Assembly: GCA_015179025.1 (NCBI GenBank)
Contig: WHUX01000084.1
Span: forward strand, 166,805-230,804
Direction of reading: 5' to 3'
DNA: 64,000 nt
Source: Terfezia claveryi
Taxonomy: Eukaryota > Ascomycota > Pezizomycetes > Pezizales > Pezizaceae
A program made the position numbers and the translations under genes. Each line of letters opens with the position of its first letter. Within the stretch, counting starts at the first letter, position 1. The notes beneath the pieces are model-generated. The model worked only from the letters and a program-made list of their open reading frames with translations, searched no databases and had not been told where the DNA came from. Positions 16,717 through 42,412 of the stretch are shown here, piece after piece.

Positions 16717-16725
16717 CTTCCTCGC
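16717..16725. repeat. left 9-bp target-site duplication of giant element
   Basis: CTTCCTCGC lies immediately outside the left terminal repeat. It is repeated exactly at 42,404-42,412, immediately outside the right terminal repeat. Confidence 0.88.
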
Positions 16726-16900
16726 TGTTCTCGTACCCAGACTCTAGCCTGATCTTGGCATTCGCTTCTGCGATTTAATCAGAAGAGAGTCTGGGACTAT
16801 ACACCTCCGCCGAAATCATCTCCGGTGCCAAGATTTTCGGAGATGCTAGCGTGAGTTTCGGAGATGCTAGCGTGGTTCCGGAGGTGCTAGCGCATTTGCG
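16726..16900 (+). repeat. left terminal inverted repeat of giant element, with subterminal repeats
   Basis: Outer end TGTTCTCGTACCCAGACTCT. Within it, TTCGGAGATGCTAGCGTG occurs at 16,836-16,853 and 16,857-16,874, and a variant CCGGAGGTGCTAGCGC follows at about 16,877-16,892. Repeated subterminal motifs of this sort commonly serve as transposase-binding sites. Confidence 0.85.
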
Positions 16901-17060
16901 TTGTGTAATTAACTAGTCTTAGTCTGGTGGGCACAAGCCCCTCCCAAAGTAATCAATAGTGGCAATCTCATTCACCCTGAATAAAACATCACCCCTGTAT
17001 AGCTCTCCAGCTCTCTTCCATCTTAGTAGTCCTTTTTAGCTCAACCAATTCCTACCCACT

Positions 17061-20000
17061 ATGATGTCTTTGGTAGCTTTGGTTAAGCACAAAACCTCCC
17101 AATCGGCTAGGGCCTTAAGGAATAAATGAGGCAAAATTGAAGAGCTTCCTATCATTGAAGTAGATGGGACTGTAAACCTGGATGGGGTATGGGAACCTTT
17201 CCTGTCTGCCAATGTTCAAAAATGGTGGCCAAAACAAATTATTAAGCTAATGAGTGGGTGTACTGTAAGTGCTATTATGATTTGATTTAATTTGATTATA
17301 TGATATTAACTGTATCTATAGGCCCTAGAAAAATTTTCAGAAAAAATTATATTGGGTGGCTGTATATGGATTCTTTAAAGTCTGAAACTGAAATCAGCTT
17401 TTTTTAAAAGCAACTTTGAATTGTATATGGCCTACAAAAGAGGGAGTAATAGATGTGGCTGGCGAAGTAAAGACTTTAAAGAGTTATATCTCTAAACTAC
17501 AAAACACTTTTTATGGGATGTTTCTGAAGTTGTCTCAATTATGGGTTCAAGGGTCTAAGGGGGTGGCATTCCAATATGAGCTTTGGGAGGCAAGAGGTAA
17601 AAGGGTTGCTCTGCGGAGACTATCGATTATGGAGGTAGAGAAATGGTTTGAATTTATGAATAAGGAATATGACAGCATTTGGTATCCTATTGTATTTGTC
17701 ATAGATCCTATTATGTGGACAATAGCTGGAAGTACAAAAGGAATATCCAATGCACTAATGACTTTCTATCAAGAATTACGAGTGTTTACTTTGGTGATCT
17801 TTGTTCATTTCATCACAATCTTATATACTAGAAGGACTAGTCAATGAGTTTTGAGCAATGCCATGTGCCTAAAAGTGTTTGATGCAATATATTTAGGAAA
17901 TAGTAAGGACTGGCCACCTTTCTTGAGGAAGGCTGAGCATCCAAGAAATACTTAGGCTTGGGAGTAGTTGGGCTTAAATTATGATCTTCATAAGTTTTAT
18001 GACCATTATACTGATATAGTTGAAAGATTGGAAGAAAAGTTGTTGAATGAAAGTAATGATATGGGCATTGAAGTAGAGAGGTTGAGGGAGCCTGAAAATG
18101 GAGTAGAGGGAATTTCTGAAAATAGAGTAAGACAGAATAAAGCTGGCGATAAAATAGATAGAGAAGTAATTGAAATTGATAGAGTAAAAGTTGACGATTG
18201 GGGAGGTGAACAAGCAGAGATGGAGGTAAATGAAGGAAAGGGTGATAGGGATGAAGTAAATATAGAAAATAGAAAGAGGAAGGAACGATACTTGGAGCAG
18301 GAGGATAGGGGGAGTAAAACTAGTGAGAAATCAGTTGAAGTAAGGGAAGTGGAGCATGAAGATAGAGTTGGAAAAAAGGTAGAGGGATTTGATTTAGAAG
18401 CTATAGGTGATATTCCTGAATTGACAATGGAGTTGGGGAATGAGTGGTTGACAGTATTATTAAGGGGCATTACTAGTGAGGAATTTATGATTTGAGCAGG
18501 CCTGGTAATACTGGTATAGTTTGCATGTATCGAAAGAGAAGTTTGTGAGGATTGGTAGTTGGATAATAGGATTGCTGAATTGGTGTAGCCCCGTCTTACT
18601 GAATCACAGATGGCAGAGTAAGTATTGTATAAAGTGTATTGCCATTGAGTATGTTATGCTAATATGAGGAAATAGTTATATTATAGAGGAGGCAATCCGA
18701 ATTTCACTGTTGGGACTACATGGGATATCTCATTAGTCAGTATATGCCTCTACTGAGCTTCGTATAAGGTATGATAAGTTATATATGTTATAGGAGAAGA
18801 AAAGAAAGAGAGAAAAAAGGGTGGCCGATAATTGTTAGAAAAAAGCTGTAGTGGAAATTCAAGTGGCCAAACGCTGGAATGTAATGTAAAAGGAGTTAGA
18901 TAAACAGGTTGAAGAAACAAAACAGGAGAAAAGGAATTTGAGGGATACCTTAGCAGAGGTGGATTTGAGAAAAAGGGGGATATTAAGTTCAGTAGATGAG
19001 GAAGAAGCTTCACAAGAATTGGAAACCAATTCAGATCTAAAGGTTAAAGAAGTTAGAGCTTTAAGTTGGATTAAGAAGCATATGGGTTTGGAGACGAATA
19101 AGAAACTAGTGTTACTAAAAAAGGGAATCACCTTGGAGACCTCATCTAAAAAACTAGTACTAAGTACACCACAGAAAATGACTCCACAGAAAGGAGGAGG
19201 GGATTAGGTTACTTCATGTCGGAGTCAGGAAACTCCATGAGGTCAGATAGTTGGTAGGAAACAGCCATCTTTGATAACGCCGAAAAAGAAAATGCCTGGT
19301 GATGAAGGGGTTTCACTTGGAGTGCTTAGGATAAAAGTGGAGGAGCAAGACCTTTCGGAAAATATTGTGGGCAATGATGCGATTAAAAGGAATGCACAAG
19401 CAACTGGATCCATGAGTCAAGGATTTAGAAGAGGCGCTCCTGGAGGGGGATATCAGTATAAGTATGTAATGCCAATACATGGGGGGTGGGGTAGTTCTTG
19501 GATACCTTATGGGTAGTATGGTAAAGGTAGTGGGTGGGGAGGGATAAGTGGTCTAGGGATGGGTGCTCCAAAAATGGGTAGTTCGGGAATGGGTGGTTTA
19601 GAAATGGGTGGTTCAGGAATGAATGGTTTAGGGATAGGTGGTCGAGGAATGGGTGGGATGGGGATAGGTAGGATGGGAAAGGGTGGGATGGGGATAGGTA
19701 GTCTGGGGATGGGTGGTCTAGAGATGGGTGGTTCGGGGATGGGTGGTCCAAAAATGGGTAGTACGGGGATGAATGGTTCGGAGATGGGTGGTTCGGGGAT
19801 AGGTAGTTCGGGGATAGGTAGTCCGAGGATAGGTGGTTCGAGGATGGGTAGTCTGAGAATGGGTGGTCCAAGGATGGGTCCTTACAAGGGTTTTAGTCAT
19901 AGTAGTCTAAGTGGTCTAGTTAATCCTGTCGGTATAGGGTATTACACTAGAAATAGGCAAAGCTCTATATATGAGATCCCAGTGGGCGGTTTTCAAAATC

Positions 20001-20545
20001 CGGCTAGCTTTAGAGCTTGAAGTGGTTCGGACAGCCCTAGCTTTCTGACAATAGGGAATATAAAGTATGTAAATATGACTAAGAAGCAAGTAGTGAGGGC
20101 TGAAGTGGGTGCTATAAGTAGAGCTAAAAGTGTGGAGTCTAGGACAATGAGATCAGAACCAGTAGGTGTATCACCACTTCTGGAGGCAGCCAATGCTAAA
20201 AGTGTGATGAAAGTTGCAGGAGTAAAAGATGTGGTGATAATAGAAGTAAATGCATTGGCTCAGGTAGTAGAACAAAATCTGGAGCAGGATATTGGGAATG
20301 TAGAGCCGGTTAAGGAAAGGGGTAGTAAGGGAGTAGGAGAGTTATCAGCTAGTGTGGGGGTTAATACAGCAGATAAAGTTAGGACTGATCCAAATATTGA
20401 GAATAATTTGAAGGGTAGGGGAGAAGGCAATAGGAAGCCAGAGCTAAAGGCAGACTCAAAGAGGAAGTCATTAGGGCATGCTAAGAGACTGGCTCCAAAT
20501 TGGAATGATGATACCATAGAGGATGATGATCTCATCCCAGTATAA
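17061..20545 (+). pseudogene. giant-element gene 1: long repeat protein, degenerate
   Basis: ATG at 17,061 begins MMSLVALVKHKTSQSARALR. A TGA after LRNK is a likely CGA-to-TGA change. A clear intron (17,265 GTAAGT to 17,321 ATAG, with an ATTAAC branch) follows. Coding similarity then continues through one frameshift at a T-run near 17,400. Recognisable segments in order: a Trp-rich helical domain (17.4-17.85 kb), a very charged Glu/Arg/Lys coiled-coil-like stretch (17,968-18,495), a second helical stretch (18.9-19.2 kb), a Gly-Met-rich repeat block (19,555-19,880), and a basic-to-acidic C terminus ending DDTIEDDDLIPV at 20,545. In-frame TAG/TGA codons interrupt throughout. No family recognised. 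It lies just inside the left TIR and reads inward. Confidence 0.6.
19555..19880 (+). repeat. 15-bp coding tandem repeat (Gly-Met-Gly-Gly-Ser)
   Basis: More than twenty units of the type GGGATGGGTGGTTCG follow one another in frame, encoding GMGGS, GMGSS, GIGGS and MGGP variants. The block stays in one reading frame, so it expanded as protein sequence. It belongs to giant-element gene 1. Confidence 0.85.
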
Positions 20546-20699
20546 TAGCTCTGGTATTAACTGCCTAGGGAATAGTTATGAGGGTAATGTATAGAGGGAA
20601 ATGACAAAGTTAGAAGGGTATGAGATCGGATTGTTAGATAGCTAGAATAACGAATTAATTCCTTCAAATGAATGTTCAGTGCCAGGTCTTGTGTTCTTG

Positions 20700-21775: not shown

Positions 21776-21824
21776 CAACAAGTGGGCTAACGCATATTCC
21801 TAGTATGTACTACAGGGCAAGTAC

Positions 21825-21962
21825 AACTCGGACCTGGTCACCAAGACCCACCTCGGCGAGCGAGTTTTGGAGTTTCAACAACTCGCCTAGTCGGCTTTCC
21901 TGTCTTACAACTCGACTCGCGATTAATCAGTAATCTATAGATTACTCGCCAAGCCTACTCTG
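21825..21962. repeat. hAT-terminal remnant, diverged
   Basis: Contains GATTAATCAGTAATCTATAG, ATTACTCGCCAAG and repeated AACTCG / ACTCGCC motifs in the same order as the left end of the second hAT copy (57,090-57,215), but with different spacing. It is followed at about 22,080-22,350 by a tandem array like the one next to the hAT end at 57,284-57,373, so it is probably the end of a related element whose body is gone. Confidence 0.6.
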
Positions 21963-22089
21963 TTTTCTTTTTTTTTTTATTGTTTTGTCTCGACTCTTCT
22001 ATAATCTCATCACATTTAACACCCTCATTCTATTCTCCTATATCTTGGTTGTTTTTGTATGACCGATTCTTTCTACCTTCATGGGTTGC

Positions 22090-22350
22090 TTGCATAGTGC
22101 TAGATTGCTTGTCTCGTATTCCTTGCACTATCATGGATTGTATGCACTATGCCCGATTGCCTGTCACAGATTCCTTGCACTGTCACGGATTCCTTGTTTC
22201 TTTCACTATGCCAGATTACCTGTTATAGATTGCTTGCACTGTCACGGATTACTTGCACTATTACGGATTGCTTGTACTGTTACGGATTGCTTGCACTGTC
22301 ATGGATTGCTTGCACTATCACGGATTGCTTGCACTGTCACGGATTGCTCC
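22090..22350 (+). repeat. about 20-bp tandem array with core TGTCACGGA
   Basis: Roughly ten units of the form TTGCACTGTCACGGATTGC, degenerate at the left and regular from about 22,225 to 22,348. Variants change CACGG to TACGG, CATGG or CACAG, i.e. mostly CpG transitions. The three overlapping open frames here are products of the repeat and are not genes. Confidence 0.85.
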
Positions 22351-22913
22351 CACCTACTGACGAACAATACTAGCAATCTGTACTACATGGCCAAACAAAA
22401 TCCTTACCCAAATATCGGTTAAGAAATATATTAATATACCTTAAATAAATCACAAGACCCATCACCATGACTATAACAAAAATCCTTCCCACATCCTATA
22501 AAACCTGAAAAATTCTTCCTAACCTTACTTGAGTTTACCAATAATCCCCCGTAAATCAATTCATACAACTATACAATATAGAAAGAAAAAAAAAAACTCT
22601 TCAAAGCAAAACCAAATGCCCTAAACATTTCCTATAAAAAGCACTTGGCTGGTGGAATAGTGTTCAACTAGTAGGAAGTCGGGTATCAGAACCTAATTCG
22701 CCAAAGATACCAATATTTACCTTGGCTGTCAGGCATTTAGGTATCTGTATTCCTTAGTAATTGATATCTAAACTAGAATTGTATAACATCAGGGCGGTCC
22801 TTTTTCGACTATTAATGTAAACCTCCCTATATTGTAGTCGTTCTTGTAACTATATATTTCATCCTCAGTAACAGTGAACCTTCTGCTAGGTGATATATAG
22901 TATGCTAACATAA

Positions 22914-23336
22914 GAGAATGATTATTGGGTACCTGCACCTCCTCCTCCTGCTGCCCCTCTGCCTACTACTGCCCTCACCATTGCTGCTGCTTCTCCTTCT
23001 CCTCCTGCCCCTAGTCCTGCTCCGGCTACTGCTGCTGCTGCTACCACTGCCCCTGGTCCTCCCCCTGCCCCTGGTCCTGCTCCTGCTGCTGCTGCTACTG
23101 CTGCTACCACTGCCCTTGGTCCTCCCCCTGCCCCTGGTCCTGCTTCTGCTGCTGCTGCTGCTGCTGCTACTGCTACTCCTCCTCCTGCCCCTGCTGCTGC
23201 TGCTAGCCCTCCTCTTCCGACTGGTCTCGGTACTGTATGGTATCCTCTTTTTACTTTTTTGGGCATTCATTGGCTCATAAGAGGTACATGTGGAAATGCC
23301 TCTGGCATATTACCTCTGGCCAATATATTCGCCTGA
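22914..23336 (+). CDS. giant-element gene 2: Ala/Pro-rich frame without start codon
   Basis: An open frame of 140 codons, from a stop at 22,911 to TGA at 23,334-23,336, reads ENDYWVPAPPPAAPLPTTAL, then long alternating Ala and Gly-Pro blocks (APGPPPAPGPA, twice), and ends in a non-repetitive tail (GTVWYPLFTFLGIHWLIRG). Of the frames through this GCT/CCT-rich tract, this gives the most protein-like composition and continues on both sides of the repeat. It has no ATG, so it is an exon or a fragment. Function unknown; Ala/Pro linkers are usually flexible spacers. Confidence 0.4.
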   Translation, partial: ENDYWVPAPPPPAAPLPTTALTIAAASPSPPAPSPAPATAAAATTAPGPPPAPGPAPAAAATAATTALGPPPAPGPASAAAAAAATATPPPAPAAAASPPLPTGLGTVWYPLFTFLGIHWLIRGTCGNASGILPLANIFA

Positions 23337-24779
23337 ATTTTATGCCATAGTCTAACATCCCGCTGTAGGATTATTTGTCTATTGTGTGTTTCACTGCCTT
23401 GTGTTGCAATCAGGTTCACCGCTTTTTCCATATTCATTATTAGTCATATTTATCTGTTACAGCATCCATGACAGTATACGTGACATATTTTGACTTACTG
23501 GTGAAATACTCATGCATATATACTTCCACCACCTCCTATATGGTATCTGTTACCCTCACTTAGATATGCTCCATATTATTCCGATCTATGAACTGCGAGT
23601 ATTTGTCATTATTATCCCTATTCACCTCTTGTACAATCTCGCTGCATAGCCTGCAGAATACAATCTTCGGAAATTATCAGGTCAACGCTTCTCTGTTGAT
23701 TCCTAATCTGACGTATGAGGCTAACTGATAATACAGTTAGATTAGTCCTTTTTACTTCATGGAATAGAATTTTTTATGGAATTGAATACTTCTTATAATA
23801 GAATGCTTCATGGAATACAATGCTAACGTACTTGTAACCGCTTTCTTATAGTTTTTAGTACCACCACTTTTTAGGGCAGCATGACTGATTTTATATTCCT
23901 AGGGACTTGTGATCTTGCTAGTTGCCCAGGGTTTTTTTTTGGAACCTGCTTTGTTCTTGCTATTCTTATATGTTAGCTGGTTAAAGGAAGTAATAAACTT
24001 GGTGACCCAGAGGCAATAGTGATGATCTTATATGAGATGAAGCAATACAGAGTGTTGTGGGAATCCAGACTTAACTATCAAACAATGAATCCAAGTTTGC
24101 TTGCACGTTCCCTCAAGTTAGCTTAGATACTTTAGTGTAATACATCGATAAAGGAAACTCAACAAAGAAAACGTGACAAATGAAACCCGACAAAGGATAT
24201 CGATAACTAGCTGTTAGGCTATTAGTTGTATATACAATTAAGCTGAACAAGCATCATCGTGGCAGATTAACTCGCCTTTTGCCAAATTCCCCCTGGAGAC
24301 TGACTCATTTTGGCCCCCTTAACAGGGCCACATATGGGTTACTTTTGCCTGCAGGTGGGCTGGGATTACTAGAGGAGACCAGACAAGCTAGGAGACAATA
24401 TATACTAGAGTATATATATATACCTATCTGTCTCATATGCAACCTTAGAACACCGAGGGACTAGTGCAAGCTGACTTGTGAGTTGTACCCTAGTCTAAGC
24501 CTTCACCACTAGCCTAATATACCGGGCTTGTGCCAACTAGACTATACCTTAAGTACTCTATTGTCCACCTAGCGACTAGTCTATACTAACCTATTGCTGT
24601 ATCCAAAAGAACAATAAATTAACAATCCTGACCCACAATGATATATCAAACAACTAATACTAAACATTCTATCAGACAACAAGGAAATAGAGAAATAATT
24701 GCTGGATAACATAGGGATCTGTAACAAAATATAAATTCCGTGACAAAGTGTAAGCTCCGTGACACCCTATACATAGTCG
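23337..24779. other. no recognised gene; decayed sequence inside the giant element
   Basis: AT-rich and stop-ridden on both strands. TTCCGTGAC / CTCCGTGACACC at 24,737-24,766 is a two-unit instance of the TCCGTGACA theme. TGTGCCAACTAGACTA at 24,531 recurs at 28,327, so both may be LTR edges of one unidentified retroelement. Confidence 0.35.
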
Positions 24780-26240
24780 TTATTTATCTTGTTCTTCTCC
24801 CTCGATATCATCCTCTCCTTTACCCTCTTCATCCTCTTTATCCTCTTCATCCTCTTTATCCTCTTTACCCTCTTCATCTTCTTTATCATCTTCACCCTCT
24901 TCATTCTCTTCATCCCCTTATTCCACTTCATTCTCCTCAATCCCCTCCACATCCTCGTAATCATCATCATCTGTGTTGCTCGAGATAAGTCCTAGGGGTG
25001 AATCGCCATCAAGATAAGGCAATCCTTTTTGACGTAGCCTCAATGCTAGCCATAATGGAGTTTTGATTACGCTATCCTTTACCGAATATACTTTAGCATC
25101 ATTGTTGGAATCAGTAAGCTCGGCCTCAGTGTCAGATAATGAAAGGTCGTCCTCTAGAACCTGGCCATCGCTTTTATCCTCAGAGTCCTATGCTCTGGTG
25201 AATAATATATCACACTTCTAAAGAGAGAGATATATATGGGTTCAATATCCTCAACTGCATCACTTAAACAATCTTCCACACCCCCTTCAGCTATTTCTAT
25301 TTCCTGTATGATCCGATCAGCTATGGCAATTGCATCGTCCTGTACATGTGGCTATTTAATTGGGCCCTCAAACCATGTATATACTTAGCATGAAATAGGC
25401 TCAACACTAATAATGACACTAAACTCATTTACTGGCTTTGTTCCTATTTCTTCTAAATCACCTTCTGGAATTGTAAATGCCAGTATATTATCACCTTCGC
25501 CTAGCTCAAGATAAAACCTCTTCTGCACTTGAGCGCATACCAGTGATATAAAATATACGCCTTCTTCTGAACTAATATTACCTCCTAGGTCTTTTGGACA
25601 AGTCGTTCAAACTTGCTGCGTTATATATTACTGAGCTGATTCCTCTTCATCCCAATTAGTGCACTGGTAACAGAGGCATGCTCACTGTCCGCCATGCTAG
25701 CTTTGAGAGCCCTGTTAACTTTTTGGCGCTTCCAGTCCTTGGCTCGTTCGAACGCTAGAAGTGGACCCAGCAATCTTTTCTGAATTTCCCGGATTTTTTT
25801 GGTGTGTGGATTGGTTGATATTCCCTAAACTTTATGACCCCCACTAAACTCTTTGTCTGGTTCGAATTCTTTTGAGCCCTAAGGAAATTCCACATACTTC
25901 TCATATAGGTTTACTGGCGTAACTGAGGCTGGGGCAGGCGTGGCTAGGATAGGCATGACTGGCACAGTTGTTACAGGAGTCTTTCTCCGTTTGTGTTTAT
26001 CTGTTGTTCGATTTCCGGATGTTGTGTTTCTTTTCGATAGCATCTTCTTTTTCTGTATGGGGCCTACCATTATGATCCCTTACTTTGATAGTCTGTTTTT
26101 AAGGCTACATGCTTTCTTGTCAGATCTATGGACATCCTGGATACTATTCGTGACACCGTCCATAACACCATCCATGATATCATCTGTGACATAGCCCTTG
26201 GAGCACTTTGGATCACACATGACCTTTGAGTACATACCTG
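24780..26240 (-). pseudogene. giant-element gene 3: protein with Asp/Glu-rich C terminus, degenerate
   Basis: Minus-strand coding similarity runs almost continuously from about 26,240 down to a stop at 24,780-24,782. Segments read, in order: CDPKCSKGYVTDDIMDG, KKKMLSKRNTTSGNRTTDKH (basic), GSKEFEPDKEFSGGHKV, FERAKDWKRQKVNRALKASM, then after a frame change GEGDNILAFTIPEGDLEEIG, a glutamate-rich stretch, PLWLALRLRQKGLPYLDGDS, and finally dozens of Asp/Glu/Lys residues. About ten TAG/TAA/TGA codons interrupt it, several at positions fitting Gln or Arg codons hit by C-to-T. No enzyme motif is seen. Basic-then-acidic architecture suggests a chromatin or nucleic-acid associated protein; this is a guess. 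Confidence 0.5.
24800..24925 (-). repeat. acidic-codon microsatellite, CCTCTTCATCCTCTTTAT unit
   Basis: Perfect and near-perfect hexa- to octadecamer repeats on the plus strand. They encode the EEDKEDEE-type tail of gene 3 on the minus strand. Confidence 0.8.
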
Positions 26241-26864
26241 CAGAAATAAGGCCTTCTAACTGGCACTGGCGATAGCCAATAGTGGGTATTATACTGGACG
26301 CAGCGTAAGACTTCTACAATTCAGCGAATTACACTATCTTTCTAATTCAGGCAACCTACAAGGACATAACCTTTGAATATTCTGAGGCCAAGTTATATGG
26401 GTTAAAATGTCTGTGATGTCTCCATCAGTAATCTTTCCACCCGTGACTTACATAGCTGGTCTCCAGTTATAGAACTTAAAGCATGTACCCCTGAATTATC
26501 ATGCGCACAATTTATGTGTTTTAAACTATCAATATTTGTTGTGAGAAATGAATGAGATTCTCAGATGCCTCACAAGTTATGGCAAGTTGAAGTGAACAAA
26601 GGGGCAAATTGAACAAAGGGGGAAATTGAACAAAGGCATGCATTCATTCTTTGTATGCAAGCAAATGATCAAGACTACAAGCAAACTTGGATGTCATCAA
26701 CCGAAAAAGGAAAATGTGACTTGTATTACTACTAAGTGAGTATATGTTACTAAGCACATAGATACATTCCAAATAAACTAGATTTATTATTTCTTAAAAT
26801 TCATGGTTATAGGGCCAATATGGGCAATATAGATATTTGAACAGCTAGGCCCGATAAGATGCCC

Positions 26865-27420
26865 TTACATTGAGCTAACCATCTCAGGCTGTCTACCTAG
26901 ACCTGCCCTCCTTTTTTCCCTCTGCTTCCGATTGCGAGCCCTTCGTTGCTTATGGAGGAGCCACTGTTTAGCATCTATAGTCCTGAGGGGAGCAACCTCA
27001 TCCCTATCCTCATCAGGTAAATGACTTAGTACTCATAATGGGGAACGGGGCTTCACTGGGCAGAAACCAGAAGGGGCGGGGTCTAAAATAATAGGATGTT
27101 CTTGGAAGGCAGAAGCAGATGTAATAAATTGGGATAATTCATATTACATGCTTGGGATGGGCTTCTCATTCTTTTTGTTCTCCAGCTGCTCGCTAGAAAA
27201 ATTGTTTTCAACTTCCTCACCATCTATAAGTACTTCACTTGGGGTGGCAAGGACTTCTACTGGCCTGCGAGACTGGTAGCGCTACGGATATCAGTTCCTA
27301 AGATCACTAGAGTAAAATTTGGATTAGCCGTAGGCTTATAACAAGGTCTTGTTGTTTTTAAGTGATGTGCCCACCACACCGCTATAGTGCCTATTTCTGT
27401 CCACTGGAGCCTTAACTATT
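26865..27420 (-). pseudogene. giant-element gene 4: fragment with basic C terminus
   Basis: Minus-strand frame segments read VEVLATPSEVLIDGEEVENN, ENKKNEKPIPS, EHPIILDPAPSGFWPSEAPF, then TIDAKQWLLHKQRRARNRKQ and REKRRAGLGRQPEMVSSM before a TAA at 26,865-26,867. Stops and a frame change interrupt the first half. The C-terminal 30 residues are about half Arg/Lys, like a nuclear-localisation or nucleic-acid binding tail. It lies upstream of gene 3 on the same strand. No family recognised; it might be the N-terminal part of the same locus. Confidence 0.4.
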
Positions 27421-28019
27421 TTCTACCACTACAAGCTGCGGTGCTTTTAGCACATGCAGTTGCTTATGGCTTCCAAAAGCTCAGTCCTTAGGGAGCAATG
27501 AAAACATGATCAGAATCTATACAGTGCAACCGGTCAATTGTGCAAGCCCATTAAGCCCAGAATCACAAATACTAAGATTACGTGGGATAACTGCAAAATA
27601 ATGATATTAGGCAAGAAACTAAGTATGAGAAGTTCATACTTTGGGGCCATGCTTTACTCTGGGATTCCTGTACTCGAGTTGGTATGCATAGTATTGTTCC
27701 GTGTGTGAGATCTTGAGGATGAAGATTACGGTAGTTGAAGGAGTAGTATAGTGATTGCTGTTACTGTAGTTGAAGGAGCAGCGAGGACATGCAGATTTTA
27801 TCTACCATTGCTATGGCCACTATCTGGCTATGGTCCACCCTCCAGCCCCTTGATATCTCTATTGCTAAAATAAAGAAGTCTCAGAAATGAGATAAGACTA
27901 TGCAACTTAGAGCGAAGAAAAAAAGCCAATACCTGATTGGTATGTGGCTAGTCATTACATATGGAGGTATCTTCTACACGATTGAGAGTTTGATATGGTT
28001 GGAATTACCCGGCGGTTAG
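27421..28019. other. no recognised gene
   Basis: Degenerate AT-rich sequence within the giant element, with no domain in six frames. Confidence 0.35.
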
Positions 28020-28440
28020 TTGGTTGTCTTATCATAGATTGTTTGTCTTGTCATGGACTAGTTGACTTATCACTTTATTGTTTTGTCACAGATTGACTGT
28101 CTTGTCATAGATTGGATTGTCTTGTTACATACTTGTTGACTTATTAGTCGGTTAGCACTTGACTTGTCACACACTAATCGTCTTGTCACAGACTTATCAC
28201 TGAATGATTGTGTTGGTATGTACTGGTTGTCTAGTCTGGTTGCACTACCCCTCGTAGTTGTCATGGACTAGTTGACTTGTTAGTCTCAATCAGACCTTCG
28301 TAGAGGTTGACTTTTAAGGAGGGTGTTGTGCCAACTAGACTATTGACTTGTCACAGACTAGTTGACTTGTCATGGAATAGTTGACTTATCATGGACTAGT
28401 TGACTTGTCACGGACTAGTTGACTTGTCACAGACTGGTTA
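28020..28440 (+). repeat. about 20-bp tandem array, GACTAGTTGACTTGTCACG unit
   Basis: Regular copies (five or six) from about 28,345 to 28,437, preceded from 28,030 to 28,270 by more diverged relatives (TTGTCATGGACTAGTTGACT, TTGTCACAGACT). AAGGAGGGTG followed by TGTGCCAACTAGACT at 28,317-28,341 looks like a polypurine tract plus LTR start, so part of the array may lie in a copia-type LTR. The array contains the same TGTCACGGA core as other arrays in the window, with a different spacer. Confidence 0.75.
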
Positions 28441-28750
28441 CTGCTGAGCAGTTTAGTACTTGCGGTTATCCCAAGCAGGCATAGGTATTTCGTAGCATTA
28501 CTGAATATAGTCATATACCATAGAGCTCCAGTTATTCGGTAGCGTAATTTCAAATTGGGTGGCATACTTAAGTAGTGTTTCTGTTGAGGCTTAACTAAGC
28601 AACTTCACCTAACAGGTATAGATTTTACAAGCTAAGCAATATTAGCTACCAGATCTTAGCACACTACTGGGTATATAGGCTAGATTGAAATAAGGCTACT
28701 GAGTAACTAGTATATACTGATCTAAATAGAATAAAGAGGTATGTAAATAG

Positions 28751-28938
28751 GATACTGCATCTACTGGCGAACAATGATCCTTATCAGTTTAATGACATAG
28801 GCCGAGCTTATGCAGTAAAAGTAATGTCCGAGTGCAAAACAGGTAGTAGTAACATGCTCACTGACTTGCTAATAATGATGTCTATAACGAAAGTCAGAGA
28901 ACTGACAAGGATCGTTATTTACCAGTAGATGCAGTATT
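28751..28938. repeat. 188-bp inverted-repeat unit at the edge of hAT copy A
   Basis: GATACTGCATCTACTGGCGA at 28,751 and its reverse complement around 28,900-28,938 form arms of about 40 bp around a spacer of about 110 bp. The inner arm overlaps the start of hAT copy A, and the match extends beyond the sequence shared with hAT copy B. It may be a MITE or a head-to-head hAT end. Confidence 0.55.
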
Positions 28939-29097
28939 ACAATATCCAGATAATTCCTAGAATAGGCAATAGTCATCGAATATGAGCAACGAGTTTTTTC
29001 TTTTTTAAAAATGAAAAATAAAAAATAAAATAAATAAATAAAACTATATATATATATATAGCATGTAGGTATTGCCATTTCATATTAGCCTAACAAT

Positions 29098-30135
29098 ATG
29101 GTGGAGAACTATTATAACCCAGATGATAAAGAGTCGTTTGAATGCTTCAGAGTGTTGTGGGAGCAGGACAATGGACTACAATATTTCCTGAGCCTAGGTA
29201 GCAGTGAATTAGTAAAATTTGAGGCTACACTGTTGGTTATGGAATGATTCGACCCAAGCAGGATTGAGTCTCGAGTAGCAGCCCAAGTACTCCTTAAGCT
29301 AATCTGGATAGGTCGATACCACTTATACTCTAGGGCCACGTCTACTTAGGATCCATTTTACCTAGACAATTATACTCTTTGCGATTTATTGTGCATTACT
29401 CTTTTCAACTTTTACCTGACTCTCTGCCAACCAACTACCAATGGTATGGGTGCATTATCCTGAGGTTTATATGAAAATTGTCAATTTCTATCTGTAAGTT
29501 GACACTGGGCTGATGAACATCTAAGCCATAACTTACCTTATTCTAGGTGCTTTCCAAGACCCATCGAATACCAGACGCCTTAGTGTCTTGACGTTGTGTA
29601 TTTATACCCCAACCATAACACCCATTGCCTAGAATAATAGTATAATGTTGTGGAGAGCACATCTTGCTTCTACCTTCCTGAAGGCATGTTCTTGATGTTG
29701 CATCTAATCACAATGTTAGGCTAACTCTATGTAGACCTCCAGAGATTATCAACTTCTATACAATGCTGGACTAGACTTAGAGATGCACTTTACTACAATG
29801 GAACACTCCCACATCTAGCAAGAGTGACACGAACGTGGAAGTGGATATGATTGTGGACAATGTTGAAGAGTGTGCAGTGGATTCGGAGTATAGTGGTTCC
29901 TCAGGCACATCCTGCTTAACCAATAGTAAAAGCTTTGGCTCTTCAAGTGAGCTCTAGGGGTTGTCTTCTAGTTTGGAAAGCTTACAAGCTTCAGAAGCGT
30001 CAGAATCATCAGAAGCTTCAGAAGCCTCAGAAGCATTGGAAAATGATGATTGGAGTACGCATTGGCCTGCGTGGAGGATTGTGGCTTTAGATTGGAATTG
30101 GGTTTGGTGTGTAGTAGATGTATAAGGGTCGGCCA
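29098..30135 (+). pseudogene. hAT copy A companion ORF, degenerate
   Basis: ATG at 29,098 opens MVENYYNPDDKESFECFRVL and continues WEQDNGLQYFLSLGSSELVK, with stops and frame changes through to an acidic Ser/Glu/Ala repeat region near 30,000 and the end near 30,135. The same protein is readable from copy B (62,406 to 61,369). Most hAT elements encode only a transposase, so a second long ORF upstream on the same strand is notable. No domain recognised. Confidence 0.5.
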
Positions 30136-30269
30136 ATAACTAATATTTCTTTCCTACTATATCCTTACTTGTGTAACCTTGTATACAATATTGAGTTTTT
30201 GAATTGAAGAGGCACTGCAAGTACCTATGGTATTGGATATTCACCTCTCAAAGCCACCCACTTTTCTAT

Positions 30270-30375
30270 GACAGAAGTAGTTTTCCGTGATAGAAGTGGT
30301 TTTCTATGACAGAAGTGGTTTTCCATGACAGTAGCGGATTTCCATGACAGAAGTAGTTTTCCATGACAGAAGTTT
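30270..30375 (+). repeat. decayed TCCGTGACAGAAGT array
   Basis: Seven units with about 20-bp spacing of TTTTCCATGACAGAAGTGG. It corresponds to the better preserved array at 61,131-61,247 in copy B and lies between the two hAT coding regions. Confidence 0.85.
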
Positions 30376-30496
30376 GTGATACTGTCCCTTATGTCCTAGA
30401 GAGTTAATAAATATGTTCAATTCCCTGATGTATTGCTTGACCAGTCCACCAACTACAACAGCCTGAAAGTATCAACCGCCAACCCCTTTTACCAAT

Positions 30497-33475
30497 ATGT
30501 CTATCTCTCTAAACGTCCTGGTCCCTTCATTTGTGATAGATTCATCCCTCACTAGGATTCTAGGGGGTACTGCATTCAAGTGGGAGGCCAAGAAGTCTGC
30601 CTGTTTCATAGAATGGCAGAAGATGACCGAATGGGCTGACAAAGTCCGTGACAATCTTGCCAAGGACATGCTGAATCGAAACAATATTAGCCCACTACGA
30701 TGGGATTCTAAACTGCGAATGGCAATGTACTAGAGTCAATTCGGTCAAGGCGCAAAGGTCAATTCGGTCAAGGTGCAAAGGTCAATAGTAGAGAACCTTT
30801 CATATATTGCTTGGGTTGCAACAGTTCGTTACAGTACCCGAGTACATTCAACTTGGGTACGACACACATGAAATCACACCTGAGCTCTGGGAGATGCCGT
30901 GCTGCAACTAGACAAAGAAGGAGGATATTGTTAACATGTTTGTGAGGGTAATTATATAATCCATGCCAATACAGAATACACAGACTGATATAATCCATAG
31001 GCTGCAACTACTACTGCTATACAGGTTCTCAATTTAGTAATGATGTATTTCAACATGAACTGATAAAATGGTCATTGCATCCAACCTACCTTTCCGGACA
31101 ATCGAGCATCTACAATTCACCGCCTCCTAAACATTCTCAGGCCTCGAATAAATATCCCCAGTGCAACTACACTTCAGCATAGTATACATCATTATGCAGT
31201 GGAAATTCAAGCGAAGCTTAAGAAAAGCCTTCCAGACAATACATTGCTTCACCTTACCACTGACTGTTGGACCTTACCTAATAAATTAGCATTTATGGGT
31301 ACAACACTCCACTACATAGACAAAGAATGGCAAGTGCGTCAACATACTATCAGATTCCAATTCCTTGGAGAGGAATCTCATAATGCAGTACAACTGGCCA
31401 ATAAGCTAAGCCAAATAATCAGGACTTGGGTATCACTAGCCAGGTCTTAGCATTGTCTCAGACCATACTAGTGTCAACATAGCACTGGCCAAACATTTAC
31501 AGGCAAATGTATTCTATCCAAAGTGGAATATAGAGCAATATAAACTTCCCTACCTCACACATGTTATCACATTGGTAAGCAACCAGTTTATGAAAGAACT
31601 TAAGTCAAGCCCAGATAATGATGATACTATCTCATCCGCTCCTCAAGTGGAGACTTCAATCAAAGCACTGCAAGGGTATGCACCAGGTACATTTGCACGA
31701 TCTATATGCAAGTTAGTCATATTTGCTCTGCAATAACCCCATTATAGAATTCTACATGTCACAGAATTACATAATGTTACGGAATTCCACATTCACAGAA
31801 TTCTACAATATTACGGAATCCTATCCCCCAATCCCATGTACTAATAGTTTTCCAGGTTCGGGAGCTGTGTAAAGCTATAGTGGCTAGTCCTCAATGGTTG
31901 GCACAATTCAAAGAACTCCAAAATGACACTCTCGTACCAATGGGCCTTATACAGGACGTTAGAACTCAGTGGAACTCCACCTTTGACATGCTTACGCAAG
32001 CATTGCGACTACAGTCATACATTGAACAATAGATCAGTCTGACTACAACTGAAGGAAAGTATAGCTTATTGTGGCTGAGTAAAGAAGAATGGACCCAAGT
32101 TTAGGAGACTATAATTTTTCTGAAACTGCTCTCTGATTATTCACATGCTATTTCTACAGGCCAGCATGCGACTATACAGAAACGTTATTCATCTACAATG
32201 ACATTTTCGACTACATCGAAAAACAACGCAAACGTATATGCAAACTTCCAGCAGTGCGACGTGGGCACCAGGATTTTTGTGCGCAACGAAAGGCTATCAC
32301 CTCATATTGCAGAAGTATTATTCGAGAATGGAAAAACAATCACTCATCTATAATCTAGCAACTATCCTAGATCCATCTAAGAAGTTATCCTTGTATGTGG
32401 ATTGGGGAAATGTCTCGGTACAGGATCCTACCATGAATCAGGAGGTTGTTGACTCCATACCATACACAGAATATTACCAGTAAGTATCAATTCTACGAAC
32501 GTTATGGAGTATATTCTATAACAACAGATGCATCTGTGACAATAGATATATTCGTGATATTATGAAATGAATGAGAATCTGACCTTATTGGGTACTTAAA
32601 GTACAGTTTGAGGAATATTTTGATATCAACTATGCCAGATACGCACCAGAGCCCCAGGCTCAGAAGAGTCGCCTCGACAATTCAGAGCAATTCTACATCA
32701 TGTATTGACTACAAGAGCAGATAGTGACCAAATCAGAGAATATTCCGGAGGTCAAGAGATACTTAACTAGTGATCTGGCCATACTAGATAGGCAGTGTCT
32801 CCTATCCTGGTAGAAGGTTCATGCCATTGAATATCCGACGCTAGCATGAATGGCAAGGGACATATTCAGTATTCCACTGACATTTGTAGCTGTTGAGTAT
32901 ATATTCAGTGGTACTCGAGATATTTTGCCTTACCACTTGAACCGAATGGGTTACTAGATGATTATAGCCCTAATGTTAACGAAATCTTGGGACTTGATAC
33001 ATGCAAAATATACAAAACTAGATCTGAGAACACTCTTGCATATGTGGAAGAAGGATTAGCTGATCATGATGAAATTGATATGAGCTAGAAGAGATAGGCT
33101 CTCAGATATGACACAGAATTCCTCTGCCACATGATACCAATCACTCTGGATGGACTATCAGGAAATGGTGATTTGGTGTCAGAGTATGAGAGTAGCGTGG
33201 AGGGAGAGGAAGAGTTTGAGGGAGATAATCTTGATGTGGAAGATACAACTTCTCAGATTTCTAGCCCATTCAACAATTTCAGTATGTAGTTAGCAGGAGG
33301 AATTGGCTTATTCCAAGGCAGTCTATTGAAGGAGGAAAGAGGGACCCCAACACCCTGCATCCCACATCGTGGGACTAAGCACCTTGGCTCTCCATCCATC
33401 AACCTGACGCCTTCAATGGCAATGAGGCTCCAGAAAAAATTACGGCCCACTCAGCATAGGAATTACAAAGTGTGA
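30497..33475 (+). pseudogene. hAT transposase, copy A, degenerate
   Basis: Starts MSISLNVLVPSFVIDSSLTR at 30,497. The hAT core follows: HLTTDCWTLPNKLAFMGTTL near 31,250, the region SDHTSVNIALAKHLQAN near 31,455, RTQWNSTFDMLTQALRLQSY near 31,960, and the C-terminal dimerisation motif (ARDIFSIPLTFVAVEYIFSG) near 32,850. It ends with an acidic Ser/Glu tail and stop at 33,473-33,475. Two introns are inferred by comparison with copy B, both containing degenerate TGTCACGGA units (31,745-31,830 and 32,485-32,600). Numerous TAG/TAA/TGA codons make it inactive. Confidence 0.8.
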
Positions 33476-34277
33476 GCCTGTATACTTGAGGAGGTGCAAA
33501 CCGAGGTAGGTATGGTCAATTATCCTTTATTTATTGTTTTTTTCCTTTATCCTTTATATCTGAGTTTTGCTTTTTCCTATTAGCTTCCCTTGTATGAGTG
33601 GGTTTCTTTTTGTGCATGGGTTTCCTTAATATGTTGTTTTTTTGGTTGAATTGTGATTATTATGATGAGCTATACTAGGGTGGATTAGTTCTCATGATGA
33701 ATTTGCGGTTCATACTCTTTTTCATTTTTTTTATTTTGATCATTGATTACTTACAGGATGTAAATTAAGTTTGGGGAGAATGGGAATAATTCACAATATG
33801 GAACTGTGGGCACTTCTTGGGTGGACGTAGGAATCTTGAGAGCATTTATGTATGAATTATTATTAAGATAGGGTGGATGGAGGGTTTAGGGATTAGAAGC
33901 AAATGTGAGAAATTTGGGTGCAAGGAAAAAGATAACATAGGGATGAGTAGGTAGGATGTTTAATATAGAATGTGTGGACGTATAGCAGCATAAACAGAGT
34001 ATAGAGAACGTGAGAGAAAAATTTGAAAGAATGCTTCTAAAAATCATGACAGCAGAAGCAATCCGTAACTAAGAATAGTGACATTGGCAAAAACCATACA
34101 AATGGACAGGAATGGGGTTTGGTGGGATCAGTGCCATGCTGAAAGACAAAACGAGTAATCCATAACAAGACTGGCAATCTGTGACAAGAGAGGCAATTCG
34201 TGACAAGCCATATACACTGACGAATAGGGGAAAAAATGGAAAACCCTAGATTTGGCAAATGTACAGGTATGAATGAG
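33476..34277. other. hAT copy A 3' noncoding region
   Basis: Collinear with 57,235-58,053 of copy B. No gene. The 34,040-34,205 part contains decayed units such as GGCAATCCGTGACAAGAGAGGCAATTCG, matching the 57,284-57,373 array. Confidence 0.6.
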
Positions 34278-34425
34278 GTTAGTAAGGGATCTTGGTGAGT
34301 AATCTATAGATCACCAATTAATCAGAGAAGTGGTCCAAGGCGAGTTGTAGTAGGCAGATACCGAGGCGAGTCGATAGCCGAACAAGTTGTAAGGGCCAGT
34401 AACTCAGACCGACTCGCCCCGTAGC
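34278..34425 (+). repeat. hAT copy A right end with AACTCG / GGCGAGT subterminal repeats
   Basis: Contains ATCTATAGATCACC and several GGCGAGT / GGCGAGTCG copies, and ends ACTCGCCCCGTAGC at 34,425. It matches copy B's left end and the solo remnants at 8.1 and 21.8 kb. Multiple short subterminal copies are the usual hAT transposase-binding arrangement. Confidence 0.75.
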
Positions 34426-34673
34426 ACACACTACATATTCCAGAGCAAACAAGTGGGCCAAAGTATATTTCAGGGCAAACTAGTTGGCCAAAGTTGGAAG
34501 TATTTTATAAGGAAGTCATACCTCCCCTCTTCTTATCCCCATACTACAGCTTTATACTGACTTTCCTAAGAAATTACCTCTATACATCATACTGACTTTC
34601 CTAAGAAATCACCTCTACATATAAAGCAATATCTCATATTACATAGATATTTTCTCTAATATCTACCCCCTTA

Positions 34674-36183: not shown

Positions 36184-38556
36184 ATGGCTGCTTAAGATAA
36201 CAAAGAACTCTTACTTCGGCTCACTGGTAAAGGCTTATTTATGATTTTGGAGATGCTGGAGAGTGAGATATATCCACTAGATCAACTAAGAGCAAAGATA
36301 GTAGAGGTGGTCATACAAACAGCTCTAGCTCGAGATGTCACCCTAAGGGTTATTGGATGGCAAATCGAAGCTGTAGCATACTTACTAGAAGGGAAAGATC
36401 AGTTAATTATCACAAGAACTGGGGATGGCAAAATATTCTGTTTTCTCTTAGCAGCGTTGGCGGTGATGGACAGAACTATAATAGTGGTGACACCTCTAAT
36501 CTTATTGAAAAATTGTCATGTACATATTCATATTGCTCTATTAAGTGCATAGCTAATAGTTCTATAGCTAGAGACTGCAAAGAGGTATAGGATTAAGGCG
36601 TGTGTGATGAACACAAAAAGCCTGGCCGAAGATACTACTTTGGTCAACAAGGCAATGTCAGGCTATTATCAACTTATTTTCATTTGCCTCCAACTCTTGA
36701 AGGTTAATCATCTGGTATTTTAACATCTATCAAAATCCAAAATTTTTACCAAGTATCTATTAGGATTCATGATCAATGAGGCTCACTTGTATCATCAATA
36801 GTCAGTTGATAAAAGTCTCCTCATTCTTAGAGTATCTTATACTAACTCATATACCTCAGGTGTATATTTCATGCAGACTACACCAACTTGAGTTTGTTAC
36901 AAATATTTTTGCCCAAGATAGCTTTCATGGTACTATCTGCGACCATTCTACTACATATTTGGGGATTTATCTACACAACTTTACAGTTTCTGAAAAATTT
37001 TGCTTTGATCCAGTGTTCAGTGAACTGTGAAAATGTATGCCTAATTGTTCGGGCCATCTACGGCAATCTGGAATCCTATGAAGACCTGAAGTTTCTGTTA
37101 CCTAAGTTAATGAAATTAGACTATAGAGAGGAAATCCGGAAAACCATGATATTTTTTAATAGTTTGAAGGAGTGTTGTTAAATCGGCTAGATTTTTACCC
37201 CACAATATATTTGAACATAATCCTGAGGCAATACTCGAATATTCAACTAGGATTACTACAGAACACAGAGCTTATAATCTCGAACAATTTATTGAAGGTA
37301 ATTGCAGGATTTTGGTTTATACAGATGCATGTGGAATGGGCTTAGATATCCCGGGTATTGAAAGGGTAGTACAATGGCGTCTATCCTAACACTGTAACTT
37401 AAGTTCACTGTACCAGCGTTTTCGGCAAGCAGTACATCAAGAAGATATTCAGGGTATTGGAATACTCTTCTATATTTTGTACGCTGAAATTACTACAGAA
37501 CATGCCCCCAAGGCACAAATTTATACTCGTGCATAGGACCATCCCAATTATAGCACAGTAGTGCAAGATATAGTCAGATTTGATATAGGTTTGGAGACTT
37601 TGACTGCTGGATATGGGCTTAAGAGAAAAGCTGAATCTATAGATGCTGGGAACCCAAAAGCCATCAAACTTGTGATCTCAAAGGAATTCTCTGAGTTGAT
37701 GCCCAAGGAGACCAGTGCAAACTTGAATCAGGATCCTACCAGTGTTATAAAGGCACTAAATGCACATAATGTTAATGAAATACAAGTTTTCCATAAATAC
37801 AAAGTGAGTAAATCTTTGCCATTTTTTTGCAGAGCCATTGTATTCTTTGTGAACACAAATAAATACCATCGACAGATTGTTTTGAAATATCTCGGGGAAT
37901 ACCCTATGCTCTCGACTAGCTATCCTTGTTGTGATCTTTGCATGGGAATCCAAATTCCCCCTAAAATCAGAACCTTGATCCCACTAAAACTGACGCTACC
38001 TCCGCAAAGCATCCGCCCTACAAAAACTATCACCCCTCTTCTACAGGACCTTAAGGATATACTGTGGCAGAACCTAACTTAATTGTGCAATACTCAATAG
38101 CGAGGCATAGGCGAAACCAAAAGATTTTGTCCCTACTTACTAGGCATTTTGTTAAACCAAAAGGAGATTAATCTTATTATTACCCATTCAGCATCCATTA
38201 AGACACCTGAACATGTCTCCAAAGCCATTAATAAAAAAGAATCCAGATATGATAGAGATGTCAAGCTTACTACGATCAATAAAGTTTTCAATGAAGTTAT
38301 TATAACAATACAGGACTGATACCTAGCTGCTATGCCTCCTCCACCTCCACAATCTACAGTACCCCAACCTGCATTAATTGAACTTACCAATGACTCCAAT
38401 ATTACTTCTAGACAATGTCTACTGGTCTAGCTACCCCCATATCTACCTCCTAAGCTTCGAAAAGTCCGTTCTAACAAAGGTGTTAAATAAGACCCTCACT
38501 CTCGAATAAACCCAGCACTGGAACTTCAGCCCACTGACTCTCAGCCCACTCACTAA
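36184..38556 (+). pseudogene. giant-element gene 6: RecQ-like SF2 DNA helicase, degenerate
   Basis: ATG at 36,184. Helicase motifs in order: Walker A as IITRTGDGKIFCFLLAAL (about 36,407), motif Ia TIIVVTPLILL, motif II as MINEAH (DEAH with Asp changed to Asn, about 36,770), motif III FMVLSATI (about 36,920), motif IV KTMIFFNSLKECC, motif V ILVYTDACGMGLDIPGIERV (about 37,310), and motif VI reading LYQRFRQAVHQ where QR.GRA.R is expected. The C-terminal part contains YPCCDLCMG, a likely zinc-binding Cys cluster, and a Pro-rich tail. At about 780 codons it has the architecture of RecQ/Sgs1-type and fungal telomere-linked RecQ helicases. Catalytic lesions and stops show it is dead. Convergent with the DUF6589 gene. 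Confidence 0.8.
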
Positions 38557-38731
38557 TGATTACTTCAGCTTTTTCAATGTATTACTATTCCCCTTTGCTT
38601 GTAATATACCAGTTTGCCCTATGTTTAATCTAATAGAGATGTTTCGCACTATAGCCTGATGGACAATATATGCTGATAACAATATCTATTACTAAATCAC
38701 AAATATTTTCTATCCCCTTCAAGCCAGATCT

Positions 38732-41700
38732 TTAGTTATCTTCTGCTTGACTATCACTATCCTCCAATACCCAACTATCATCTCCTCTATACTCATTCAT
38801 AGACTCCTCGCCTTCATCTACCTCAAAGCTCTCTCCCTCATACCACACACTTCTTTCCTCATATATCAGATCGTATACTATATCCCCATACTCTATTTCT
38901 TCTTCATCCTCCTCATCAACTTCATCTCCTTCACCACTTCTCCTCTTATTCCCTGCCACCAAATCATTGTCTACCCATACCTCCATATTCTCTTTAAAAT
39001 TCTCTTCCAAATTCTCATGTTCCTCTTTCTACTGCTCTTCTTCTTCCCTCAACTCTCAGTCTTTCGTATATTCTGAATCTCCATCTCTATCCGTATTCCC
39101 ACCCAAGCCCTCACTCATTAAGTCATCCAGAAATTTCCCTTGTGTAACTACATTTTCACCTACCATGCCGAAGTCTAATGCCAGCTTCACCTCTACTAGA
39201 TTATACTCCAAGCCACCTATCCATCGACCCTTCCGAAACTGCACAATGTTATTTTGCAATAGACGTCTCATTACAAGCCATGCATCCTCCTTATTATCTA
39301 CAGAGCTATACTTGGTTGTCAAGTCTGGAACTCCTAAAATACAGTTAAGTCAATTTATAGTCAATTCAATAATCTATATTAGACTACTTATGAGCACTTT
39401 GATTTACCACCTCCTTGATATTATTAAACAAAAAAGCATTTTGGAATACCGATTTCAAGAAAAAATCCTTACTTTGCCAATTTCTGTTCGGATTATATTG
39501 ATCTTTCACCTTTCGAACCACCAACTCATTTACTTTATCAATACCCATGAACTTTCCCTCTTGACCACTCAGGTTCACCAGAATGTTATTGAGCTAAATA
39601 TATCTGAACCTATCTGTCCAGACAACCTCATTCTTAATCAATAAATTCACTATTGCTTTTGCATAATGGTGTTTCCTACCACCTACAAACCATACACACA
39701 GGGGTTCAATATTTTATAAAAGGCCCCCTGAATTACTAGCACTATATCTCATATTATTAGCCATCTGCCTATATTAGAATATATAAAGCATGAGAACAAA
39801 ATACATATCTCAAATTGTAATGCAAATCCCGAATAACGAAATAATGCTGCAAATATAATAGATAGTTTTTATATACCAATTCTCTCTTCCAGTATACCCG
39901 ATTTTTAACAAATTGGTTGCGGTTAAGTTAATTACCAATCTAATCCTTCTTTCTCTTTTTAAGTTTCAACATGTTATGCCACTCCCAGAGAGCATTCAGC
40001 TCCACTTTTTCCCTCATTACTGACATAGCCCTCGGGACAAACAGTTTCTAGATAATAGAGGTATAAACATCTACATAGCTTCCTACATCTTACAATTTGG
40101 CTGATATATCTTCATAATCTTCTACCTTAAGATTACTACAGTCAACTACCTACCTATAATATTAATACATTAATACACTCACTTACTCCTAATTTAGCAG
40201 CCACGGCTGCTAGCGCATACCCCTCTCTACAAATACATAAGAAGCATTTACACGTATTGTATTCAGGCATATTTACACTTATGCCTTTTGACCTAAGTAC
40301 ATGCTTCAAATAACACAAGGATCCAATATCCATACTATCCTTACATCCCTAATACCTCTTAAAGAGCAAATCCTCAGTAGCTATCTCCAAATGGAATATC
40401 CCATCCAATCTCTTTAGGAAGTTTAGACAATTATACTCAAAATCTCTGATACGCGATCTCTTGAGCACTGCTACCTATACAGATTAGCCAAATCCAATGG
40501 ACTCCTATACTATGACCAGCAATTTCCCTGATATTGTACCTCAAAGCATCTACCTTCAGCATAGTTCCTAAGTCTCCTGCATATAGAATAATCCTTCCAT
40601 TCAAATCCTAACCTATTAGTCTAGTATCTTTTAACATGGCCTCGATAATCTCAGCACTCCCAGAGATAGATGTTTTATATAACTCTATTATTTCTAATAC
40701 ATGAACATCTATTTTAACTGGAGCTATCTTATAGATACTATCAAATAATGGCCTGACCATACTTGGATTCCTCTTCGACCACTCAAACAGTACAGTCCAA
40801 AGTGCTTCCATAATATGTCACTCAAATATACCAGCACTTGACCTGGCATGTATTCTGCATAGGAGTCCTTGAACAGCAACCATATTTTATTAATTCTACT
40901 ATAATCAGGCTTATTACAAAATAGCAACTACCTCTCCAAACCAACCTTGCCCTTTTCATAATCCTTTAGCCCCTAATATATTTGTTCTGCCTTGTCATAT
41001 TTTATCCACTCCTCTTTTAGCATTTAGTTTTCCTCCATACCTGATATGTCCATCAACTGAGCACTAGCTGTATCTAAAACTGGACGCACCCCACTTGGCT
41101 TAATTAGGCATAGAAAATTTAGAAACCATAAAGCAGCACATGTATACTGCATTAGAAGTTTCTGATTCTTCACACTCTGGCCAGTTTTGTTCTCGAACAT
41201 CATATTATTATCCCATATCTACCCGAATAGACAATCATTCTTAATCCTCTTTAATATCCTTTCTGCATTCACCTTCGTAATAGCCTTTATTGCATCCCCA
41301 ATAGTTGTGTATACTACACTCAATCCTATACAGTTTAAGAAACTGATTACTCTCTTCCCAACCCTACATACTTGGAAGTAATAGCCTAATAGGGTTTGAA
41401 GCCAGTTATATATTTGCGAGTATCCAAAGGCCATCATACTTATAGCTATTGTCACAACTAAGTTTTTGTCCCAAAAATTCTGATATCAACCAATCCCAGA
41501 CTTGCCTCTTTTCCTCTTTTTATAAGAATTATTCTGACTTTCACCCTACAGACAAATCCCTCTAATAATATTAATTAATCATGGGCAATATTCATCGAAT
41601 TTCTGGCCTAACTTTTCGAACTCAAACTCTGTAGCTATGACAGGGCTTAAAGATTATGCTAGCATTCTAGTGTCCGCATCTCTGATATATGTTTTCATCT

Positions 41701-42064
41701 CCAACTCCAGGACCTGCTGAACCACTCTCCATAGGCCAACACTCAGGGCCTGTTTTAACATTAGGATAGCAGCACTTGAGTTTTGTTTTTTAGTGAAGTT
41801 AAAGCTCATTTGTGGTAATATTGCCTCGAATACCTTTTTGAAGCCATCATTTTCAAAGAAAGTTTCCCTCTTCTCCTGGATCCTTTTTGACTTAGTGATC
41901 ATTACCTGCTCAAAAAATAAGGCTAGATCTATGCTATTGGACCATATCTCCTCTAGTACTACTAGTACCTTCGGTTCCCAAGATTTAGTTAATGAACTTC
42001 TTGTAGCATCACCCTCCAAAATTAGTAGGGCTCTAGCTAAGGGTTCTATAGGCATCTTCCACAA
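38732..42064 (-). pseudogene. giant-element gene 7: DUF6589-type protein, degenerate
   Basis: Reads from ATG at 42,064 (MWKMPIEPLARALLILEGDA) with an alpha-helical N-terminal half (LMLKQALSVGLWRVVQQVLE; IGDAIKAITKVNAERILKRI). The conserved centre follows near 40,580, ILYAGDLGTMLKVDALRYNI and LDGIFHLEIATEDLLFK, then DIGSLCYLKHVLRSKGI and CREGYALAAVAAKLG. The C-terminal block MNLSGQEGKFMGIDKVNELV / WQSKDFFLKSVFQNAFLFNN (about 39,570) leads to an acidic tail ending at 38,732. The GDLLT-like motif, FHLxM block and GSLxxL...L segment are those I associate with fungal DUF6589 proteins, whose biochemical role is unknown. An intron is likely at about 39,337-39,386. Many stops and frame changes. Confidence 0.65.
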
Positions 42065-42239
42065 GTATGTATTGTACGTATATGGTTATTCTGTGCCCTC
42101 CTATATGTCACTGTAGTTACTCTAGTCAGCTCACTCATCAATGGCAAAAATAAATTTCGCACAATGGGCATAAGAACATTAAATGGTAATATTTTGTTTT
42201 GTTTCTTAATTCAAAATAAGCTTTAGATCACATGCTTAA

Positions 42240-42403
42240 GCGTCAAATATAGTTCCACACTAGTATCTCCGATTCCACGCTAGCATCTCCGGATTCGGAG
42301 CAGAATTAGAGTCAATTTCGGAGGTGTTTACTACCAGACTCTTAGCTGGCGTAGCAGAAATAATTATTTCGCGACAGATACCTAGAGTCTTGGCACGAGA
42401 ACA
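42240..42403 (-). repeat. right terminal inverted repeat of giant element
   Basis: Read on the minus strand from 42,403 inward: TGTTCTCGTGCCAAGACTCT, then AGAGTCTGG, AACACCTCCGAAATTG, and GGAGATGCTAGCGTGG / GGAGATACTAGTGTGG (plus-strand positions 42,275-42,292 and 42,254-42,271), mirroring the left end. Confidence 0.85.
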
Positions 42404-42412
42404 CTTCCTCGC
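42404..42412. repeat. right 9-bp target-site duplication of giant element
   Basis: CTTCCTCGC, identical to 16,717-16,725. Confidence 0.88.

Follow-up and report, generated by a model that had tools for sequence, protein, structure and literature searches.

A helicase-carrying DNA transposon, most likely of the AcademH type, interrupted by a nested hAT element in the desert truffle Terfezia claveryi

Terminal inverted repeats (TIRs) are a general feature of DDD/E DNA transposons, and one superfamily of these elements, Academ, reportedly includes a lineage that Kojima described in 2020 as AcademH. In the available excerpts of later papers, AcademH elements make 9- or 10-bp target duplications and their difference from AcademX is tied to a helicase (PMC10045372); in fungi, the majority of Academ copies contain domains like DEAD/DEAH and recQ_fam, and many pass for host genes in annotations (PMC6416283); and AcademH occurs in Basidio-, Asco- and Mucoromycota (PMC10799480). 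Here we describe an element from Terfezia claveryi, a desert truffle of the Pezizomycetes. It lies at 16726-42403 of a 64-kb stretch, hereafter the window (C778:166805-230804, contig WHUX01000084.1), and was compared with the whole assembly (72.6 Mb, 794 contigs). The initial annotation had taken it for a giant 25.7-kb TIR element with a multi-gene cargo. We propose, with a probability of roughly 0.83, that it is an AcademH-type cut-and-paste transposon of ~13.1 kb (the outer element), with a DUF6589 transposase, an accessory RecQ-like helicase and a further protein, ORF-A, and that it later suffered a hAT insertion and decay of the type caused by repeat-induced point mutation (RIP).

The two ends of the outer element both read TGTTCTCGT inward and agree at 20 of their 22 outermost positions. 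Imperfect, patchy inverted homology extends ~150 bp inward from them (left TIR, 16726-16875, with CGGAGRTGCTAGCG repeats inside; right TIR, 42255-42403), CGGAGATGCTAGCGTG-type repeats are present within both ends, and exact copies of CTTCCTCGC flank the element at 16717-16725 and 42404-42412; the end sequences, the patchy homology, the repeats and the flanking duplication are as in the initial annotation. Genome searches in which 40 candidates were scored per end listed at least 41 matches to the left end and at least 40 to the right end, the window included. We examined eleven end pairs: those of the window, C31, C257, C562, C235, C334, C108, C190, C656, C24 and a second copy on C778. Right ends on C784, C224, C313 and C792, with no identified left end beside them, stand outside this count. 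Seven of the eleven pairs are flanked by an exact 9-bp duplication: CTTCCTCGC in the window, GGATTTTAC on C257, CTTCCACTC on C334, CCAGACTAC on C108, ATAGCCTAG on C656 and the same 9-mer, GTATCAAGC, on both C562 and C235, so that the last two copies may be one insertion that was later duplicated. Two further pairs (C31 and the second C778 copy) match at eight of nine bases, and two show no duplication (C190, 5/9 bases in agreement; C24, 6/9).

The outer element sits inside a copy of another repeat. When its flanks were joined, 42 matches were found in the genome, six of which span the junction without the element (C290, C43, C21, C190, C556 and C101). The target position is single in all six: it reads exactly CTTCCTCGC on C43 and on C290, the latter with eight additional bases adjoining it, and departs from CTTCCTCGC at one to three bases on C21, C190, C556 and C101. 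The initial annotation had suggested looking for further copies that share these ends but bear different 9-bp duplications, which were found, and for an empty site with a single target in another strain; the empty sites obtained are paralogous sites in the same genome. The outer ends are thus not a chance resemblance, because of their many genome matches, the differing 9-bp duplications and the six single-target empty sites. The outer element has moved in the past, and its copies and empty sites bear out the reading as a TIR transposon that duplicates 9 bp of target; its ends, duplications and empty sites are direct observations, as are the nested element, the gene order and the RIP-type substitution pattern presented below.

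The length of 25.7 kb, in contrast, does not belong to one element. Relative to the copy on C31, the window contains an extra 12,633 bp (21801-34433, forward strand), flanked on both sides by the 8-bp sequence CATATTCC (21793-21800 and 34434-34441). The ends of this segment match each other (TAGTATGTACTACAGGG and TAGTGTGTGCTACGGGG), and the segment is missing at the equivalent point in the C31, C792 and C313 copies. Each of its ends has at least 40 listed matches, that of the window included (at least 39 elsewhere), and copies of the nested family span about 12.5-14 kb on C54, C773, C21, C23, C133 and C36. It also encodes, on the forward strand, the hAT C-terminal dimerisation domain PF05699 (32787-32990, E 1.2e-11), interrupted by three stops. 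A 127-residue frame piece upstream (31067-31450, forward strand) looks hAT-like by eye and probably belongs to the transposase; a Pfam scan of it gave no match above cut-off. Since hAT elements duplicate 8 bp of target, the duplication, the inverted ends and the dimerisation domain all agree with this superfamily; 12.6 kb is large for a hAT element, and in this the nested copy differs from it. We conclude that 21801-34433 is a hAT element inserted into the outer element, and the apparent 25.7 kb is therefore a ~13.1-kb element plus 12,633 bp. The right end and the dimerisation domain of another member of this hAT family lie at 57058-58707 on the reverse strand.

These data bear directly on the reading of the locus as one true giant element in which every inner gene is cargo. 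A perfect duplication around outer ends 25.7 kb apart does invite it, but the inner segment is absent from three copies, has TIRs and an 8-bp duplication of its own and recurs alone elsewhere. As the C31 copy is uninterrupted at 13,098 bp, the giant-element reading is refuted, and we regard it as practically untenable. Half of the length is the nested transposon, and the view of the inner genes as a multi-gene cargo is wrong. Likeness to Starships, which are large fungal elements with several genes, is limited to size and gene number: here TIRs with 9-bp duplications are found, and Pfam scans of chosen frames, without a dedicated search, gave no tyrosine recombinase above cut-off (a sub-threshold hint is described below). 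More generally, nesting combined with RIP-type decay can mimic a giant element, and a false one is hereby removed.

Besides the long copies, the ends of the outer element occur on eight short copies of 2.2-5.3 kb (C562, C235, C334, C108, C190, C778, C656 and C24). All eight carry the left ~137 bp of the C31 copy at 96-97% identity and its right 107-111 bp at 93-95% identity; their interiors consist of repeated units that are common to the short copies and unlike the 13-kb element. A ninth, on C257, measures just 205 bp. These copies look like non-autonomous derivatives that would have been mobilised in trans.

We next consider the genes. On the right side of the outer element, a decayed RecQ-like superfamily II helicase gene (36196-38082, forward strand) faces a decayed DUF6589 gene (39393-42085, reverse strand). 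The helicase gene comprises a DEAD part (36196-36552), a Helicase_C part (37053-37548) and a zinc-binding-like part (37537-38082) that scores below cut-off. Pfam domains were assigned across copies: DEAD in the window, Helicase_C on C31 and RecQ_Zn_bind in a relative on C62. The best NCBIfam model was recQ_fam (TIGR00614, 4.4e-24 in C62, under that model's own cut-off). In a genome search with the Pfam DEAD model, the window helicase was not among the 37 scored of 93 candidates. The DUF6589 gene has matches to its namesake family at 39393-39782 and 40533-40829 and an N-terminal piece (41654-42085) with 40% identity over 100 residues to a DUF6589 protein of Terfezia boudieri.

The association of the two genes is a recurrent one. 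DUF6589 matches fall at 43 places, or 22 loci, and at 15 of these a RecQ-like helicase match lies at most 13 kb away, an event with a chance of at most 1.4% at a random place. The nearest helicase is convergent in 15/15 pairs, and 12 of them are spaced 1.5-2.05 kb apart; C154 has an additional, non-convergent helicase match 9.5 kb off. Seven DUF6589 loci have no helicase match within 13 kb (C108, C117, C127, C224, C325, C784 and C92). Helicase matches 79-80% identical also occur on C156 and C338, and neither contig has a DUF6589 match.

A third gene, ORF-A, accompanies seven of the 15 pairs (window, C31, C792, C6, C42, C151 and C154), and in each case the helicase lies between it and DUF6589. 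In the window it is decayed (17389-20545, forward strand; conserved piece 17389-17667) and appears by eye to encode a protein with a coiled coil and GMGG repeats. The relatives on C6, C42, C151 and C154 are 33-37% identical, each lies beside a helicase/DUF6589 pair, and their strand relative to the pair is opposite to that in the window, C31 and C792. A Pfam scan of ORF-A gave no match above cut-off; the hint of a tyrosine recombinase mentioned above is a match of one of its frames to the core-binding-domain model PF22822 below threshold (E 0.089, 13.9 bits; cut-off 27). As a third conserved protein of such elements, ORF-A is possibly new. TIRs were also sought around the C6 relative, and in 15 kb just a short interspersed repeat was found. 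A low-complexity frame 5' of the helicase was considered as another conserved gene, the fourth, and dropped, as BLASTP of the C6 frame against that of C31 gave nothing (E 5.3). Of the seven decayed genes proposed initially, ORF-A, the helicase and DUF6589 stand in the outer element, and a hAT transposase stands in the nested element; the remainder did not resolve into genes. Nor does the earlier statement hold that no transposase is recognisable, given the hAT dimerisation domain and the likely role of DUF6589.

Pfam lists DUF6589 (PF20231) as a family of unknown function. It is the likely transposase of the outer element. Among DUF6589 proteins, a DN, a GDQ/GDL and a later E are kept, with exceptions: N replaces the second D in P0022, that piece is missing from P0025, and the first D is N in the C31 copy. 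The E of GxMExxLQxW, replaced by Q in P0003, is better conserved than the acid of 'YGPE'; the latter was dropped as a candidate third catalytic acid, being replaced in P0015, P0016, P0018, P0021 and the window's own family. The top structural match of a predicted DUF6589 structure is the Hermes (hAT) transposase, a weak and tied match. We advance, as a tentative idea that we would bet against in its full form, that DUF6589 is a DDD/E transposase so far not annotated as such, into which a hAT-like helical domain is inserted, and that it moves a compact conserved set of DUF6589, the RecQ-like helicase and ORF-A; the last of these would be undescribed, and two sublineages encode it on opposite strands. 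The identification of DUF6589 as a transposase of helicase-carrying elements is possibly new: the term was absent from the literature searched, and the AcademH paper may well show such proteins without the Pfam name.

To which described group does the outer element belong? It has 9-bp duplications, a DEAD/RecQ-type helicase and TIRs, and since these and the fungal host agree with the descriptions of AcademH, assignment to this lineage is the most likely one; the likeness concerns these features, as the excerpts describe them. The outer element is a new family of an already known, helicase-carrying kind of transposon, and the initial view that it resembles no known element is probably wrong, given the fit to AcademH and fungal Academ as the cited excerpts present them.

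Kolobok, the other group of DNA transposons in which a RecQ helicase occurs, duplicates TTAA and had to be weighed. KolobokH, found in fungi, encodes such a helicase, and in the red-algal Kolobok-1_CCri the RecQ helicase is on the complementary strand, as it is in the outer element (PMC9587614, in its available part); because of this one red-algal case, gene orientation alone cannot exclude Kolobok. However, the duplications here are of 9 bp and of varied sequence, and the position of the helicase, a separate convergent gene in every pair, also differs from KolobokH. We therefore consider KolobokH or a related Kolobok quite improbable. Somewhat less improbable, yet still unlikely, is a helicase-bearing lineage outside Academ, in which DUF6589 would form a transposase superfamily of its own, with elements AcademH-like just in helicase and 9-bp duplication. 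The absence of a Pfam function for DUF6589 and the weak top match of the predicted structure, to a hAT transposase, would both suit such a lineage; the published descriptions of fungal Academ and AcademH, with the same DEAD/recQ_fam domains and 9-10-bp duplications (PMC10045372 and PMC6416283, in the parts available), speak against it.

The history of the outer element may be pictured as follows. The DUF6589 protein would bind the ~150-bp TIRs, cleave the element at its two ends and link these to target cuts staggered by 9 bp; insertion into the repeat copy would in this way have duplicated 9 bp of target. The RecQ-like helicase may unwind the ends or process strand intermediates, ORF-A may act as an accessory protein, and the short end-only copies (2.2-5.3 kb) would have moved in trans. 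Later, the 12.6-kb hAT element inserted into the window copy, and RIP-type mutation would have broken the genes.

Traces of such mutation are evident in the alignments. The window copy was aligned with five further copies, of which two are partial (2.7 kb), and differs from them at 10.5-11.6% of aligned bases; transitions exceed transversions 7- to 14-fold among copies of the outer element, and C/T differences are concentrated at CpA and its complement. This substitution pattern is a signature of RIP, which presumably produced it in Terfezia claveryi, and the broken look of the genes would be due to RIP-type mutation. DUF6589 becomes tied to a helicase-carrying transposon lineage, and genes that carry the label 'DUF6589 domain-containing' or RecQ-like helicase in fungal annotations could be checked for a transposon origin.

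Rfam and tRNA scans of the 64-kb window gave no matches. Just beyond the right end of the outer element, a 78-bp unit is repeated 2.7 times with 93% matches (42521-42734). Farther along lies a long terminal repeat (LTR) retrotransposon (47195-56161), bounded by two 674-bp LTRs that are 89.9% identical and containing a reverse transcriptase match on the reverse strand (51336-52088). A further copy of its family begins at 62582 and runs to the edge of the window (64000), and another member of this family interrupts the outer element on C792.

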